Below are positions 3,747 through 57,917 of a stretch of DNA of 64,000 nucleotides, in pieces; the stretch's first letter is position 1, and the number at the start of each line of letters is the position of its first letter. The stretch spans positions 9,300,001-9,364,000 of the forward strand of contig OX485803.1 in the NCBI GenBank assembly GCA_950295325.1, in the 5' to 3' direction. The notes under the pieces are model-generated. The model saw only the letters and a program-made list of their open reading frames with translations. It was not told the DNA's origin and did no database searches. The translations under genes and the position numbers were made by a program. This DNA is from Polytrichum commune. Taxonomy: Eukaryota > Streptophyta > Polytrichopsida > Polytrichales > Polytrichaceae.

Positions 3747-6700
3747 ACTTTGGTGTAAAACAATCTACTATTGTGACAAAAAACCCTAACATAAGAATTA
3801 CTTTTGGGTTTGTTAAAAACTACATGATAAATGTCCACCATAGATGTACATCTATGAATATACAATCAAGGGAACTTACCTAACGTTGTAACATGTAAAG
3901 GATAAACCATGAGAGCTTTCTTTCCTAGTTTAAGTAGCAATTATTGCTTACCTTGATTTAACCATGAGATTAGGTTAAAGACTGAGGACTAGTAAAGGTG
4001 GAAGGACCGTGTAACCTACCACAATGCTCAACCTTACAAGGTTTGAATGGCTAAATAACATGTAGAATACTCAATGTTGGTGTGTGTATTCATTAATACG
4101 AAATGATTGTTTATGTTGGACATGATTGTGTGACATAGGTAACAATTGGATTTTGTTGCTATTTACCTTGTGTACGTTACTATAGATAGGTTTTTTGGAT
4201 TGGGTTCCGTTCAACAAAACCACACATGGAAGATTAAATAAGTTTCATATTGAATTCTAAGTGTCATTATTAGGTTAATTGATGGATCACATTGACTTTA
4301 GAATAAGACCTATGTATCAAACCAAAATAAAACTTTGCTTCATGTGAGTTTTAGGAAATGATGAGATTAATGAATGGATTATGAGGGTCACTTAATGTAG
4401 TACATGCAATTGCACGGTCTCTCCCTTACAACCAACCATCATCCGGTAATAACGACTCACTATACCATAGATTTTCAATCCAAGGAGGCATAACTCATTA
4501 GTAGTCTTCTTGAGTAACCAATAACCACATGTAATAAGGGCCAAGGCACCCCAATTTGAGCAATGATCTCTCCTTAATTATATGATAATCCAGTGGATCA
4601 AAAAATATTGTAGGACAAATCATATGGGTTGATTGCGTTCATTGGATTATCTATTGTTTAAGGAGTCTATGGGATAATCGTCCTTACTAAACCGACTAAA
4701 GGACAACATTCTATAAGTTTCCAGAACCATTGGCCAAGACAAATTGATTTTTATGCCTATGGCATAGTTCATTCCCTAATTTAAATGATTTCAGTTTCAA
4801 TTAATGTGAACACTTGAGTATTTAACTTTGGCAATAATACAATTTTGATCTCCATTAACACTTTTGTCATGGTCTTTTAACGGATATAACTCATGATCCT
4901 CACTAATGTTTTTGGGATTCAATTAGTTTTGTGCTATACCTTCACATAAGTATAATTTCTCATTATTGTGATATTTGAGGAGAGTGCAAAGACAATTGTC
5001 AACTTATATGATAATCATGCATTGTGACCAAGCATTGCGTGACCTATGGCACTTCATTTTATCCTTGCGACGCGGCCACCGGTTAACACATTTATTATGT
5101 CTCTTTGAGTTCTAGAAGACCATAGTCAAGTTGTAGCTTCGAGCCTTCACTCTCCATCTGCGACACTTCCTCTACTTATGGCCCTCCTCAAGCTCTTCTT
5201 TTCTTATGAACATTAGTTATCAATTTTCTTGAATATGGTTCAATCACATAGATTGAATGAGTATTTTCAATGCAGACCATGACTTCTTTATTTGACACAT
5301 AACACAAACTAGATTGCACCTTCTATCTTTGCAAACAACTATATTAAATATTTCAACCCTTTATTAATTCCATTTCTCAAGAACAATTACCAATCTCATC
5401 CTTGCTCTTGCTCCCAACAAATGATCACACCATGTTAATTTCTATGTGAATTAAAGGCTTCACACCTTACACCCTTAAGTTCGGACCATGGTCAAATTCA
5501 AATCCTTGACTTAGTTGTCTTACTTTCTTCTCCCATAGCAAACACATGGCTAGACCAACATTGGAGACCAATGAACCACATTCTTAGAGGATAAACTCGC
5601 TCCTTTCATTTACAACTCTATAAGGGTAAATGTCAATCACAAGACTTCACATTTTGTGCCTTATTTGACCATGACAACAGTGTGATCATGTTGCCAACGA
5701 ATCTTGCTCTCTTCCCGAGAGTACAAATACCGTAATTTCACAAAGGTATTGAGAAAATGGTTATGCTCAATTAGTAATCGGATAAGATAACTTCAAAGTG
5801 ACAAGGGCTTCACATCCAAATATTGACTTAAACGATTGTGTTGGCAACATCCAATTCAATTCAATCACTTTCTTCAAGAGTATTGATAGACGATATGAAT
5901 GTTGGATATGAACAAATTATTCAAGAGTTCATAGTCAATAGTTTAGCTTACAAATCATCCAACTTCAAAATTTAACCATTATGGGCAAAATTTTGGATGA
6001 CAATTACTAAACCTCTTCATGGAATTGGTCGGTGGCATGGGCACATGTGAGGCAAACCTTGCACAAATTTGGCATAACTCTTAAGTTTTGTATCTCATCT
6101 TTCTTCAAGTCTTTGTAATTTGCTTAGGTATTCTACAAAGCATGTGGGTTAGAGGCAAACACTTGAAGCTTTGCTTTATTTGTCTTGCACATTTCTTGAA
6201 TTTGAGTATGAAACTCTAAATACTTAGTATAACAAGTTTACTTGACTCATGTAGAGAGGGGAAACCCTAAAAGGTTGTTGTTTGATGATGTAAATATTTA
6301 CTTTGAGGAGACAAACTTTTATGAGACATCACCTAGTCAAGAGAGATTGTTTGCACAAAGTTTTTTTTTATTAAGGGGTTGATCTCACCCACACTCAAAT
6401 ATTGATTTTTGGTGGGTATCACAAGATCATCAAATCTTTGCATATCCAAATCATTGTCTAGGTATATTTTAGCATAATACCATCTTGATACAAGTGTAAT
6501 TTTACCTAGGTACGAAGGTTCTTGATAGTATGCAAGCCTAAATGGTATCAAAATCAAATATAACCTCATTGAAACCCACACCCTAAAAGTATTAAAAAGA
6601 TCTCACTATATGCACCATGGTGGTATACCAAAAGAAATGGCAACAATTTGGTGGCTCACATGGTCACTCATTCATTATGGATGAAGGGGCTCTAGTAAGA

Positions 6701-45864: not shown

Positions 45865-48414
45865 TATGCTATCAATGGTTCATGGGTGTCCCAAAAAATA
45901 CTTGGTAATATTCTCCTAACACAACTCTTTTTCGTATTCTATGAATCCAGATAAACCTTTAAGGATTTCCAGTCCATTTTTCATGGGTCTGATGTACAAG
46001 GTTTGGGCTCCTCATTGGACAACATACATTTACCATCACTATCTTGACACCATATAAGTATACCGTCCTCTAGGGCCTAATTAGGTGTTGTGCACAAAAA
46101 AATGAATTACATGGGGGTGCCATGAAGAATGAGATTTGTCAAAGAAAACACAGAGTCTTTTGTTGTGGTAGATCTTTCTAATTTCCAAGCTTGCTCCTCA
46201 CATGCATTAGTTCTTTAATCATCTGAAATCCATCCCTAAATTGTGCCCAAATTCACTTAAATCATATAATATTCTTAATATGCAAAGTAGCTGCATAGCT
46301 CATTTATTACTCAAATATCAATTTTTATGATTAATGAAACAATATACAACTCATAGTGCAACTTTCAGTCATGCTAGTATTTGCCTTCAATAATCCTTAA
46401 AAGATCCGGCTGTATCAAGGTCAATATCTCTCAATCTATAATACATGTGGAGCAAAAATTTCACCAAAATTGGAACAAAACGTCTCCTAAACTACCCTCC
46501 AATTTTCACATTGATAGCTACATTATTTGAGGAGAACCAAACCCTCAATGTTGGGTTACTTAGCTGTAATAGTTTCTAGACCCCCTTTGCTTCAATGCGA
46601 CATTGCGTATTCTATAGTATAAATTATGCCTTCAAACTTTGCATACAAGTGATGTACCTCATCCAAAACTCTCTTTCAAAAAATTGCAACAATATCTTCC
46701 ATCATGCAAAATAGAGCAAAAACCAAGACCCAAATTTTGCTTTTTTTTATAAACCGATTAAAGAAGACACAACATTTTGCATAGTACATATCCTCATTCC
46801 TCCAAATAACTTCAACACCCTCAATTTTTCTAAGCACTTAGAAGCATAAAATCATTTAAACCCCCTAAGAATATTTATTTCCTAATGCCAAAAACCCTCC
46901 AAAAATGCGCATAAGAATGCCTCACCACTCTTTTTCTACCCCTTAAATCCTCTTTCATCTTGCCCCTTTTGGCCAATGGGAAACCATTGAATTAGGGCAT
47001 CAAGGAACCGTAAGCGGCTAGGTAATGGCCATTGCCACCGTTGTCGGTAAACCCTAACCTTCCATAATCCTCAAGTCCTCTATACCAAGCACTCCCAGTT
47101 TTGAACTCAAGATCGGGTCTCAACTAAATAACTAACTAGAACATGATTAATATGACATCATACTAACATCCATTTACATATATACTTGGATTAATAATAA
47201 CACACGTAAATAACTACAATTTAAATACTAACTGACCCACGTTACGACATCGGGGTCACCATCATCCTGCACATAGAAGTGAAATTGTTTAGCTTTGGTA
47301 TGTCCGACTAGGCAGTCCACTATTTTCAACATGTATGGCTTGATAAAGGCCTTGAGATTTAGTATTGTTTGATATGTGTTAAATTACTAGTACATTGTTC
47401 AAATCCATGTATATTTTCAAGAAAAGTGACATGATAGGAAAATTCTCTTCATGTAACTCTATGCTGCATCAACCGAATGACACATCAATGTTGTCATGCA
47501 TATGACCTATTAATTTAAATGGTAATTAATTTGGTATTATCATCATAAATAATATAAATAATTATTTAAAGAGGCATTTTTCCTTGAGCAAAGACAAAAA
47601 AAAAACATATAACAATACTTGTTATTTTTAGTACAATTATCAAGTTTCACGGGAAGAGTTAAATGCAAGGATTTTACAAGAATGGGTTCAGGATGAGGTT
47701 TTAGCGATAAAAACATACAAACCTCCTTACCCTCAAGTATGGCCTCATAAAGAAGTATCATTCTAAAACATTTGTGGTCAGAACTGCTATTCCAAACGAA
47801 ATTACAACCCACAAGATTAGCCGGATGGGTAGAGTATTCTAGTGCCTCCAAGCAATGACATTCTAATTCCTAAATTAATTACATTATGCTAATCCGTGCA
47901 TGTTATCCATACGTCATATTCATCCATGTTTAACATCTATATGTACATCACGTTCATTTGTGCATTACATGCATCTTGACGAACCACCTAAATTCATCTT
48001 AAGCCCATTAATTCATCTCATATGAAACTGCTTTTCATCCACCTAAAACATCCTAGCTTCATCTACAATTCATCTATCGCTACCGTGATTGGGGGATTTG
48101 CGTGAGTTACCTAACTTTCATGTAATTCCACACCGTCCACTCTTGGTTGAGTTGGGCAAATACTATGAGTGTTTGGCTAAATAATATGAATATTAGTTCG
48201 AAAAATAATACTTGGATGGGTGTTCATGTGCCACCCTCTAAGCAAACATCTCAATATAGACTAAAGCTAGAGCTTTAATCTCTAGCTTAATCTCTAATGA
48301 TACTCTAACTTAATTTCTAACTTTGTCATTGACCACTAACTTTGTCTCTAATTACTAACTTCTATCTTTATCTTATGCCTCTAAGCCTCAAACGTTCTAA
48401 AACCCTCAACAACC
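45865..48414. other. AT-rich intergenic DNA, nothing recognised
   Basis: Only short frames. A 102-codon minus ORF at 47543-47851 has no motif. Confidence 0.35.
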
Positions 48415-48988
48415 CACGGGTAGATCACTCTAAGGCATTTTTGTGCACCACGTGCGGCTGGGGGTTTTTTGTTTTGGGGCTATTTACCTTCAAAGGTTGA
48501 ATTAAAGCCTCCCTATAATTACTCAAATTTAAAAAATGGCCCGTTTGTTTGCACCCTTCCATTACTTATATTGTCCAAGACACTGCAATTTTTTGTACTC
48601 TATATTCCTTTTAAGTAATAAAAGCTAATCTACTTCCTAACGTAATTGACAAGTGTTGAGGGAAAGCATGGAAACAAAGAAGGGTGCAAACAATAATATC
48701 ATTGCAAACAGAGTTATGAAGAAAACAAATAGGAGACCATAGCAAAGTAATATCATTGCAAACACTGTTATGAACTTATGATCCTTATCTTCAGCCCCTA
48801 TATTAATTTTATAAAAAAATAATGGCCCACGTTTTATGTCCATCTAACTTACTTATAATGGGATTATCTACATTTAATGGCCCCTTCATTATTTGGAATT
48901 CCTTTATAATTTTTATTTCAAATGATTTTAATTCTCTCTATATTATGCCGCACGTCGTTTTTAAAATGCACTAAGTGATCTACCCATG
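48415..48988. mobile_element. hAT-like MITE, second family, copy 1 (574 bp)
   Basis: The ends are inverted repeats starting CACGGGTAGATCACT (left) and CATGGGTAGATCACT (right, other strand). The element lies between perfect 8-bp direct repeats, CAACAACC (48407-48414 and 48989-48996), the target duplication length of hAT elements. The interior is non-coding. A stretch near 48680-48780 differs completely from the other copy and contains a small internal duplication of the word AATATCATTGCAAACA. Confidence 0.88.
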
Positions 48989-49320: not shown

Positions 49321-49681
49321 AATGCAACTAGACAACAATACAACATGAAAAAACAATCGTCTGCGTCTTTTGCCCCGACAACCATATGTCCACACATAGT
49401 TCGCTTTAGCAACATACATCTGTGCAATTCTTATCCAACAAGGTTAAAAAAGCTTTTCATTCAATAAAAACCCTTCTGTTCAATGTTCATATTCTTATAT
49501 TTCTAAAAACTTTGCGCATCTATCTACATGAAGAGGGAAGAAAGAAAGTGTGTCTTATGCATGAAAGAGTGAAAATGAGAGTCGCACTTACTTTCGCAGA
49601 CCATCCTCCTCCAACCACAAAGTCTTATTGGCCGTAGATCTAACCATTCCTACATCTAATGGTTCGCCTCTACAGTTGACT

Positions 49682-50213
49682 CACGGGTAGATCACTCTAA
49701 GGCATTTTTGTGCACCACGTGCGGCTGGGAGTTTTTTTGTTTGTTTTGGGGCTATTTACCTTCAAGGGCTAAATTAAAGCCTCCCTATAATTACTTAAAT
49801 TTCAAAAATGGCCCATTTGTTTGCACCCTTCCATTACTTATATTGTCCAAGCCACTGCAATTTTTTGTACTCTATATTCCTTTTAAGTAATAAAAGCTAA
49901 TCTACTTCCTAACGTAATTGACGAGTGTTGAGGGAAAGCATGGAAACAAAGAATCCCCGTGAGTCCTAAACCTATTTACATACCATACCAAACATACCTT
50001 CTAGGATCCTTATCTTCAACCCCTATATTAATTTTACAAAAAAATAATGGCCCACGTTTTATGTCCATCTAACTTACTTATAATGGGATTGTCTACAATT
50101 AATGGCCCCTTCATTATTTGGAATTCCTTTATAATTTTTATTTCAAATGATTTTAATCCTCTCTATATTATGCCGCATGTCGTTTTTAAAATGCACTAAG
50201 TGATCTACCCGTG
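49682..50213. mobile_element. hAT-like MITE, second family, copy 2 (532 bp)
   Basis: It is nearly identical to the element at 48415-48988 over most of its length, and its ends match: CACGGGTAGATCACT on both sides after reverse complementing. The flanking octamers AGTTGACT (49674-49681) and AGCCGACT (50214-50221) agree at six of eight bases, consistent with an aged 8-bp duplication. It has no ORF of note. Confidence 0.85.
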
Positions 50214-53114: not shown

Positions 53115-53700
53115 CCTCCAGATTGAATGTGGCAGTGTGCTCCTGAAGAAAAATTCTTGATAAATTGGGTGACATGCTTGAACATGGTGTGATTGTGTGA
53201 ATCTGGCAAGAGCATGAGGGAGGGGATCTCTTGGAGTACTTGTCCAGCTTCAAGGGTGGCTTAAACCCAAGGCCTTAACCTGGATTCCATGGGAACTCTG
53301 AGGTTAAGCCACCTAAGGACGGAATAGAGCTCGGATGGGTGACCTTCTTAACACTTGATTTCCAGTGTATCCTATCACATGTGACCCACCCAATCCTAGT
53401 GGGGGTATTCGGGTGAACTAGATATATTGAACCAACCATGTGGGAACCTAGGGGCTTGCCTGTGCCCTTACAAGGTATTTGCCTTTGAACAAAGGCAATA
53501 ATTATCAGAGGCCCTCTAATTCTCATAATACCCGTTTCGGGATTACATATAGACTTAGACCATGAAGCAACACCGTAATTCACCGTGATGGCAACATCAG
53601 AGTCATCTTTCTTTCTTTTCTGTCCAGCTTTTTGCAGGTGAAGTTGGCAAGCCATTTCTTGCGACAATTGAGAAGCTTCCTGGCTGTGCCCCCTACTGAT
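53115..53700 (-). pseudogene. Decayed partial copy of the AP2/ERF gene, split by a SINE-like insertion
   Basis: The plus-strand words CCAGATTGAATGTGGCAGTG and TTGAACATGGTGTGATTGTG, and later AAGTTGGCAAGCCATTTCTTG and CGACAATTGAGAAGCTTCCTG, match the antisense of the ERF gene at 57475-57670 with scattered differences. That part encodes the residues just after the AP2 domain (KKRPANFPCENL through the FVKKKSQEYA segment). Small deletions destroy the frame. The copy lacks the rest of the AP2 domain and the C-terminal exon. Between 53250 and 53621 it is interrupted by an insertion with a 10-bp duplication, and the intact gene shows the uninterrupted arrangement. Confidence 0.7.
53251..53620 (+). 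mobile_element. SINE candidate with 5S rRNA-derived head, 370 bp
   Basis: The insertion lies between perfect 10-bp direct repeats, TGTCCAGCTT (53241-53250 and 53621-53630). Its first ~120 bases follow plant 5S rRNA from the first base: GGGTGGCTTAA, GGATTCCAT, GAACTCTGAGGTTAAGC and CGGATGGGTGACC correspond to the 5S blocks GGGTGCGAT, GGATCCCAT, GAACTCCGAAGTTAAGC and AGGATGGGTGACC. The last two are the 5S internal promoter elements, so it could be copied by RNA polymerase III. The rest (about 250 bp) is unrelated and ends in a T/C-rich tail. The direct-repeat length and the head at the very edge favour a SINE over a Cassandra-type LTR, which also carries 5S sequence. Confidence 0.7.
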
Positions 53701-56269: not shown

Positions 56270-57917
56270 CTATGTAAAAAAGCAGGGATCCAGCAGCGGG
56301 ACATTCATAGGGGATTCATGGTCAGGAGAAGGGGAGCATTCATTGTTGAGATTAATATTGTAGTCGTCTAGGCAGGAATATTTGTAATTTTCAGTGCCAT
56401 AATCTTGCAGGAGACTGGCCAGATAATCGGCCTCATCCATGTCGGTCTGTGCTGGTGGTGGTGAAGACAGATTCATCACCTCAGTAGGAGAGGTAGGATC
56501 CAGCACTCCTGAACGCAAAACATCGTCAAAGGATTCACGCTCAATATAGCTGCTCGTGAGGGGTTGAACTGTTGGCAACCAGGTCGCACTCATCTCTGCA
56601 CCCATGACCTGGTTGTCGTATATCAGCTGAAATGGAAGCTGCACCGGCAACATAAGAGCAGACTGACATTCAGAAATAGTCATGGAGTTGCTGTAATGGC
56701 ACAGGTTTCCAAATTCATTTGGAGATTGACATATGAAATCAATAGTTTAATTATTTATTTTTGAGGTGATTTGCGGGTTTCATCAACTCTGAACCCCATA
56801 ACTGTTGAGAGAGAGTGAGTCGTACAGGAGGGAATATTTTGAGCTTAATACAGTGGTTCTTTTGAGGTTATTATGCTGTGAATTAGGAGACCATCAGGGT
56901 AAGATGAAATGTCCAGCTCACCTCGACATTCATGGCCATGAGTTGATGAGCTTGCGATGTGGTGCAACATTCTCTTTGTGAGCCGCACTTGAAATTCGAG
57001 ATGTAGAAATTTGGGTCAATAATAGAATATTCTTGCTCCCCAAAGGCTACGCCTTCAGCATCACTACACTGGTAATCAATCCCTGAGAAATTCAAATGTA
57101 GTGGACCAAATTCGGTGGATTCACACGAGTGGAACATTTCCACATCATCCATGACCATCGGTTCCCGCTTCAACCGTTTCACAACGGGCATGTCCTGATG
57201 AATCCCCAGACTACAATTATCCTCTCCTGAATCTTTTGCAGGCCAGGACTGCGGGACAGAGGAGAAGCTATGGCTGTGGCTATGGCGACGGCTATGTGTA
57301 GTTTCATAATCTGATTCATCAGACACGGTTCGCATGATGCAGGGCTTGATGTCCTCCTGAGATTCAACCTGGTCTAGCACATCCTCGATCGACTCTTGTG
57401 AGTAGCTCGTCTGATCCAAGGGGTCCTGAGGAGCGATCTTGAGTTCGGGCAATTCCGAAAGCAGGGCTTGGATGTCTTCCAGATTGAATGTGGAAGCGTA
57501 CTCCTGGGATTTTTTCTTGACAAATTTGGTGACTTCCTTGAACATGGTATCGTTTGTTACATCTGTCAAGAGCAGGTGGGAGGGGATCCTCTCGGAGTAC
57601 TTGGTCAGATTTTCGCAGGGGAAATTGGCAGGCCGCTTCTTGCGACATTTGAGGAGCTTTCTGGCTGCATCCACTGCGCGAGCCGCACCCTCCTCACTTT
57701 CGAAGGTGCCCAACCACACCTTCTTGTCTACCGATTTCCACTCCGCCACCCGAATCTCCGCCACCCACTTGCTCAAATCGGGGCGGAAGCGCACACCAAA
57801 GTATCTGGAGCTTTGGTCCCTGGATCGGCTCCGGGTTTGGATCCCAACTGCTGCCAGCACTTCTTGCGAAGTGGTGATGGATCTTCTCGTCATAATCTCA
57901 CTGCAACAAATTCCCAT
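56270..57917 (-). CDS. AP2/ERF-type transcription factor, two coding exons
   Basis: This is a nuclear DNA-binding regulator. Exon 1 runs from ATG 57893 (an ATG at 57917 in the same frame would add eight residues) to 56922. Residues 30-91 are one AP2 domain with its YRG half (YFGVRFRPDLSKWVAEIR) and RAYD half (VWLGTFESEEGAARAVDAAR, with Val where Tyr is usual), followed by a basic KCRKKRP patch. A single AP2 domain without a B3 domain places it in the ERF family; the subgroup is uncertain. The sequence MAMNVEVSW runs into a stop at 56883, but GAG|GTGAGC at 56922 is a strong donor. An acceptor at 56663 (GAATGTCAG) keeps phase 0 and adds 130 residues, including a Pro-rich and acidic aromatic C-terminus (ADYLASLLQDYG, a typical activation-region composition). 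The intron is 259 bp. The spliced product is about 454 residues. The C-terminal exon assignment is inference from frame and composition. Confidence 0.85.
56663..56921 (-). other. Intron of the AP2/ERF gene
   Basis: The intron starts GTGAGC after the codon GAG and ends TTCTGAATGTCAG before TCTGCTC. It contains in-frame stops for exon 1 and is richer in A and T than the exons. A nearer acceptor (CATTACAG at 56691) would shift the frame into an early stop, so 56663 is preferred. Confidence 0.65.

Follow-up and report, generated by a model that had tools for sequence, protein, structure and literature searches.

A probable 5S rRNA-derived SINE family in a moss genome, with a 3′ end resembling that of a Dualen-like LINE

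SINE3 is the name given to short interspersed elements derived from 5S rRNA, and zebrafish is one of their hosts. The part of the literature on which we draw reports them from animals and from a fungus (PMC10886601), and lepidopterans and Aspergillus fumigatus are among the examples listed. The element described here shares with SINE3 a 5S-derived head with an internal Pol III promoter, a separate body and target site duplications (TSDs); in contrast to the animal and fungal hosts which that literature names, however, its host is a green plant, its 5S sequence is of the host's own type, and its 3′ end is like that of a Dualen-like LINE. It likewise recalls Cassandra, a TRIM that has a plant host and a 5S-derived promoter. 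Cassandra, however, is an LTR retrotransposon with the 5S sequence within its LTR, whereas the moss element is a single unit with 5S sequence at its 5′ end, a pyrimidine tail and TSDs of variable length.

Other comparisons concern the opposite end of the element. SINEX-2_CR of Chlamydomonas is described, in the portion of the source used here, as having a (CTTT)n tail and the LINE RandI-2 as its partner (PMC3747384); a (CTTT)n tail in common with a RandI/Dualen LINE is thus the point of likeness, a comparison that covers tail and partner rather than head or body, and the difference lies in its green-algal host. The seed-plant elements Au SINE, p-SINE and ZmSINE2, which have T tails, resemble the moss SINE in their T-rich 3′ ends, and ZmSINE2 also in a LINE-like hairpin; within the same portion of that source, the partner of ZmSINE2 is L1, and none is determined for Au or p-SINE (PMC3747384). 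Unlike the moss element with its 5S head, plant SINEs are described as tRNA-derived in the passages we draw on (PMC9033089). Our searches for a 5S-derived SINE from a plant, made in an open-access library, found none.

The element lies in a 64-kb window, the whole stretch of 64,000 nucleotides that was analysed, within a decayed fragment of an ERF paralogue (Table 1). A reading of the sequence alone (hereafter the sequence-only reading) had proposed a 370-bp insertion between perfect 10-bp direct repeats and had pointed to a homologous ERF gene with the same site unoccupied. Both proposals hold: when the flanks are joined without the insert, they align continuously through the junction to the intact ERF gene, at 81% over 192 columns. 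No open frame runs across the paralogue fragment, even with the flanks joined, and disruption of a working gene by the insertion therefore cannot be claimed. A search of viral contigs with the ERF protein gave no match. Elsewhere in the window, 48412-48988 and 49679-50213 form a direct repeat some 580 bp long, with 85% identity between its two units.

Table 1. Features of the SINE copy and its target site, in window coordinates. Box names of the 5S internal control region follow PMC10853983 as far as the portion of that source used here gives them.
Feature	Position	Strand	Basis and remarks
SINE copy	53251..53620	+	370 bp; gaps against the consensus amount to about 40 bp; family alignment and consensus
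5′ target site duplication TGTCCAGCTT	53241..53250	+	Perfect repeat of 10 bp; site unoccupied in the ERF paralogue
3′ target site duplication TGTCCAGCTT	53621..53630	+	Perfect 10-bp repeat of 53241-53250
Full-length head derived from 5S rRNA (model positions 1-119)	53254..53377	+	Host-5S covariance model, E 0.00098
Stretch matching 5S internal control region (A-box-like, IE-like, C-box-like)	53302..53349	+	Consensus compared with host 5S; limits by eye
Body of SINE, source unassigned	53378..53576	+	Common to family copies
LINE-like 3′ segment with terminal hairpin	53577..53606	+	13-nt run in common with LINE end L124; folds
(CTTT)n pyrimidine tail	53607..53620	+	Sequence
Decayed ERF paralogue fragment holding the insertion	53117..53686	-	ERF homology on both flanks
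Empty (pre-insertion) site in ERF ORF 56883-57917	57478..57667	-	Alignment with joined flanks

The window copy belongs to a short, non-coding, dispersed family whose members have common 5′ and 3′ ends. The genome searched amounts to 408 Mb in 64 contigs, of which seven measure 42-78 Mb, and 40 of 1986 first-look candidates were scored. These consist of the window copy, 33 near full-length copies at 71-76%, and six that match in pieces, the first piece reaching position 206-210 at 83-85%. The consensus measures 396 bp plus tail. The sequence-only reading had suggested a genome search for copies sharing both ends, and many places do match the two family ends: with at most one mismatch, a 27-mer from the 5′ end occurs at 172 places and a 25-mer from the 3′ end at 76, while a 32-nt C-box stretch occurs at 362 places with at most three mismatches, the reversed control giving zero in each case. 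Among the copies sampled, 4/12 and 14/39 lie within three mismatches of this stretch; scaled accordingly, the 362 places give a rough estimate of about 1,000 headed copies in the genome. A sample of 60 copies was assembled from the window copy, 39 copies chosen by similarity and 20 of the 76 3′-end places (17 exact, three with one mismatch). On average, the 39 similarity-chosen copies differ from the consensus by substitutions at 12% and the 20 chosen by their 3′ ends at 14%, and the family is therefore old.

The first ~120 bases of the insertion had been aligned to plant 5S rRNA in the sequence-only reading. The 5S origin stood up, with the refinement that the sequence to compare is the diverged 5S gene of the host itself. 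Twelve genes on contigs C1, C2, C3, C5 and C6 (L009-L020 and further loci) give the best 5S matches of the assembly; they are nearly identical to one another and dispersed rather than arranged in tandem arrays, and tandem 5S arrays may be absent from the assembly. Some host 5S sequences are local duplicates with common flanks (three on C3, two on C1 and an inverted pair on C2), and decayed 5S copies rank below the 12 genes. A canonical angiosperm 5S query retrieved the same host genes, the best of its 31 candidates matching at 84%; the host genes differ from this angiosperm sequence by 16-20%. SINE copies, too, are recovered when the genome is queried with 5S DNA. Two loci (L028:1318-1673 and L153) contain 5S-like sequence in tandem pairs with a spacing of 182-184 bp, which may represent a further repeat derived from 5S.

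The Rfam search of the window gave no match at the gathering cut-off, and for 20 other copies (of the 39) only two were listed at E≤1. Because Rfam misses the window copy and 18 of these 20 others, the 5S signal of single copies must be regarded as degenerate; and since Rfam is too insensitive for 5S sequence so diverged, a covariance model was built from 17 host 5S sequences. In the window, this model matched only one place besides the head of the insertion, at E 1.7. Positions 1-119 of the model were matched in all 40 similarity-chosen copies, the window copy included, and in six of the 20 chosen by their 3′ ends; 36 of the 60 copies matched at E≤0.0041. L104 gave a partial match at E 5.8, and eight LINE loci together gave one partial match, at E 1.5. 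The consensus scores 99 against host 5S, the maximum among 1000 dinucleotide shuffles being 39, and its head has host-type letters in common with the 5S genes, including CCAAGGC, AACTCTGA and GCCGGAATAGTACT. These comparisons show a head that derives from 5S rRNA, is full length and occupies the 5′ terminus of the element. TTTT stands directly 3′ of several host 5S genes; at the corresponding point the SINE consensus lacks a T run, which makes read-through into the body possible. An internal TTTT near consensus position 172 could stop Pol III early and counts against smooth transcription.

The way in which copies were inserted can be read from their flanks. In the TSD test of the 60 copies, the 5′ duplication had to end near the element's start. 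Duplications scoring at least 8 were found in 19 of the 60 copies and in six of 600 mismatched left/right pairs; their lengths of 8-14 bp bear out, where a duplication can be trusted, the earlier expectation that each copy would have a duplication of its own and of variable length. At a score of at least 7 the counts are 24 of 60 against 25 of 600, and under looser criteria they are 16 of 40 against six of 300. Fourteen of the 19 trusted TSDs begin with T. The 41 copies with no trusted TSD (score of at least 8) are to be expected in an old family, yet they are a real gap. Among the 20 copies chosen by their 3′ ends, 15 extend to consensus position 1-5, one (L112) to position 89, and four only to positions 277-304. 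Three of these four are 5′ truncated copies whose upstream sequence has no match among the fetched loci (L107, L111 and L119), and the fourth, L117, is part of a local tandem duplication. A 7-bp duplication may flank L107, though duplications as long as this occur in mismatched pairs too. Taken together, duplications of variable length, truncation at the 5′ end and a tail of short repeats agree with target-primed reverse transcription and not with LTR integration. In L046, a GAT microsatellite stands in place of the pyrimidine tail, and the 14-bp duplication of this copy itself starts with GAT units.

The sequence-only reading had described a 5S head joined to an unrelated body with a T/C-rich tail. 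Head and tail were upheld; that the body is wholly unrelated was not, in that its 3′ end shares a short stretch of sequence, a hairpin and a pyrimidine tail with the 3′ end of a LINE of the host genome that is not an L1. The 3′ end of the family consists of AATTCACGCCGGT, a hairpin and a (CTTT)n tail, and the consensus terminates in AATTCACGCCGGTGGCAACATCGGAGTCAT(CTTT)n, with the hairpin. The body had no match among the 34 RT/LINE loci searched. In the LINE survey, 150 of 2620 reverse transcriptase candidates were scored, and one LINE group with long RT matches was traced to its 3′ end in three copies (L123, L124 and L125). L124 terminates in AATTCACGCCGGTATTTGATACGGGCGTTCA(CTTTT)n, and the other two are slightly different. 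Anchored at the tail, the exact run in common with the SINE consensus is 13 nt in L124 and 8 nt in each of L123 and L125; when 20000 shuffles were compared with five LINE ends, none reached 12 nt, four reached 11 and 316 reached 8. The common motif stands at the same distance from the tail in the SINE consensus and in L124. Outside the exact run and the tail the similarity is weak, the gapped local score of a tail-free 45-mer being equalled by 21, 74 and 185 of 2000 shuffles for L124, L123 and L125, respectively. A 24-nt LINE motif occurs at 658 places in the genome with at most three mismatches (control, zero), and of the 17 places fetched, 13 lie immediately downstream of the C-terminal end of the LINE ORF. 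The tails of these 17 LINE ends are of C and T in 16, L150 having a (CTTT)n tail like that of the SINE, and (ATATT)n in the remaining one; because the 17 were chosen by the motif itself, they are evidence for the LINE tail, not for conservation of the motif. Directly behind one Dualen-like LINE tail lies a partial SINE copy in reverse orientation (consensus 162-365; positions 3887-4261 of the concatenated loci L124 and L127).

The LINE itself consists of one long open frame, of 2372 codons in the copy on C5. It contains an APE-type endonuclease (PF14529, E 4e-8, above the cut-off), a reverse transcriptase whose best PDB matches are among R2 proteins (E 2e-34), an RNase H (PF00075, E 7e-15) and a PCIF1-like region with a weak match below the cut-off. 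An RLE endonuclease is probable: the sole PDB matches of the C-terminus are to one R2 protein (two sequences), over a zinc-finger and RHNK stretch whose motifs were recognised by eye, at a non-significant E of 0.99. Dualen is described as having both APE and RLE, and RNase H has been reported for Dualen/RandI, in the part of the source consulted (PMC4640811). Among the 12 of 4,779 papers listed for Dualen in mosses or bryophytes, none names Dualen, too narrow a basis for regarding it as unreported in mosses. We use the term “Dualen-like” because the RLE is unproven and the assignment comes from domains rather than from an RT tree. This LINE is abundant (L123, L124, L125, L130 and L136-L152), and its N-terminal part contains a GDIHPNPGP motif, which we take to be 2A-like.

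Other explanations for these units deserve consideration. The portions of the literature used here make Cassandra a known case of 5S sequence in plant mobile DNA (PMC10886601, PMC10853983), and the units might on that account be solo LTRs or members of this TRIM; we judge this very improbable. The 5S sequence begins at the first bases of the element here, whereas the relevant passage places it at about the middle of the LTR in Cassandra (PMC10853983), and the trusted TSDs of 8 to 14 bp differ from the 5-bp TSDs given for Ajax and plant Helenus in the part of the source that treats them (PMC10886601). Truncation at the 5′ end and the pyrimidine tail also speak against it. The sequence-only reading had itself raised paired LTRs with 5-bp duplications as the alternative to be checked, and no LTR arrangement was seen: a direct repeat pair including the 5S-like stretch is present in none of 20 5S-like loci of 3.1 kb, bar the 184-bp tandem pair of L028, and TSDs directly flank the SINE unit in 19 of 60 copies, which were seen with about 100-300 bp of flank only. 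Still less credible is a head that comes from another Pol III gene, or from chance, and is similar to 5S in its C-box-like part only. Such a head would agree with the failure of the window copy to reach the Rfam gathering cut-off, but identity between the consensus and host 5S is 84% over 69 nt, the covariance-model matches of the similarity-chosen copies are full length without exception, and the consensus head folds with a closing stem GGGTG/CACCC.

Somewhat more weight, though it too is unlikely, can be given to the possibility that the SINE is mobilised by L1 or some other LINE and that the motif in common with the Dualen-like LINE reflects coincidence or convergence. L1-like LINEs do exist in the genome, and the similarity to the Dualen-like LINE beyond the exact run is, as noted, weak. 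The placement of the motif argues the other way, equally far from a tail of the same kind in both elements and with an exact run longer than any that the shuffles produced, as does the sole L1 end examined (L099). This L1 was rejected as a partner: it ends in poly(A), its exact run with the SINE is only 4 nt, and it has no similarity to it. Two further L1-like elements, L101 and L102, matched the SINE only in chance-level words, in compared sequence that stops short of their tails. Given that one L1 was followed to its tail and that a small part of the reverse transcriptase candidates was scored, another LINE could fit better.

We consider it highly probable, then, that the family is a moss 5S-derived SINE of the SINE3 type, with a body of unassigned source and a 3′ end like that of the Dualen-like LINE, and that it is transcribed by Pol III and mobilised by the LINE; its transcription and its dependence on the LINE are what we infer from these features. 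In such a cycle, TFIIIA and Pol III would start transcription at the first base of the SINE from the internal 5S promoter, and Pol III would read beyond the usual end of a 5S gene. The LINE reverse transcriptase would then bind the resulting RNA at its 3′ hairpin and (CUUU)n tail, nick a new site and copy the SINE RNA by target-primed reverse transcription, a process that would leave the 8-14 bp duplications.

The chances are about even that this is the first plant family of 5S-derived SINEs, with a Dualen-like LINE of the moss as its partner. If so, plant SINEs would be restricted neither to heads from tRNA nor to L1/RTE partners, a SINE-LINE partnership of the green-algal type would persist in land plants, and plants would contain SINE3, from which the 5S sequence of Cassandra LTRs has been proposed to come. 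The passage in question speculates that the Cassandra 5S came from a SINE3 jumping into an LTR (PMC10886601), and a plant SINE3 makes that origin testable. Likewise, a moss Dualen-like LINE with a matching SINE would extend the pairing known from Chlamydomonas, as far as the source describes it (PMC3747384). The moss pair would also offer a plant system for stringent 3′ RNA recognition.

The searches also touched on light-harvesting (LHC) protein genes of the host. Three host LHC proteins have their best PDB matches in 7xqp, 8htu, 7ksq and 6l35, which we take to be moss (Physcomitrium) photosystem entries. The LHC protein of L131 matches chain 9 of 7xqp and 8htu, presumably the moss protein Lhcb9, at 5e-114, and two chains of 9vfj at 1e-111 and 2e-107; from the eighth match that is not 9vfj-like onward, the values are about 1e-70. 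On these matches the host is most probably a moss. Fourteen LHC genes with the same domain E-value lie within about 95 kb (C5:1751760-1846160).
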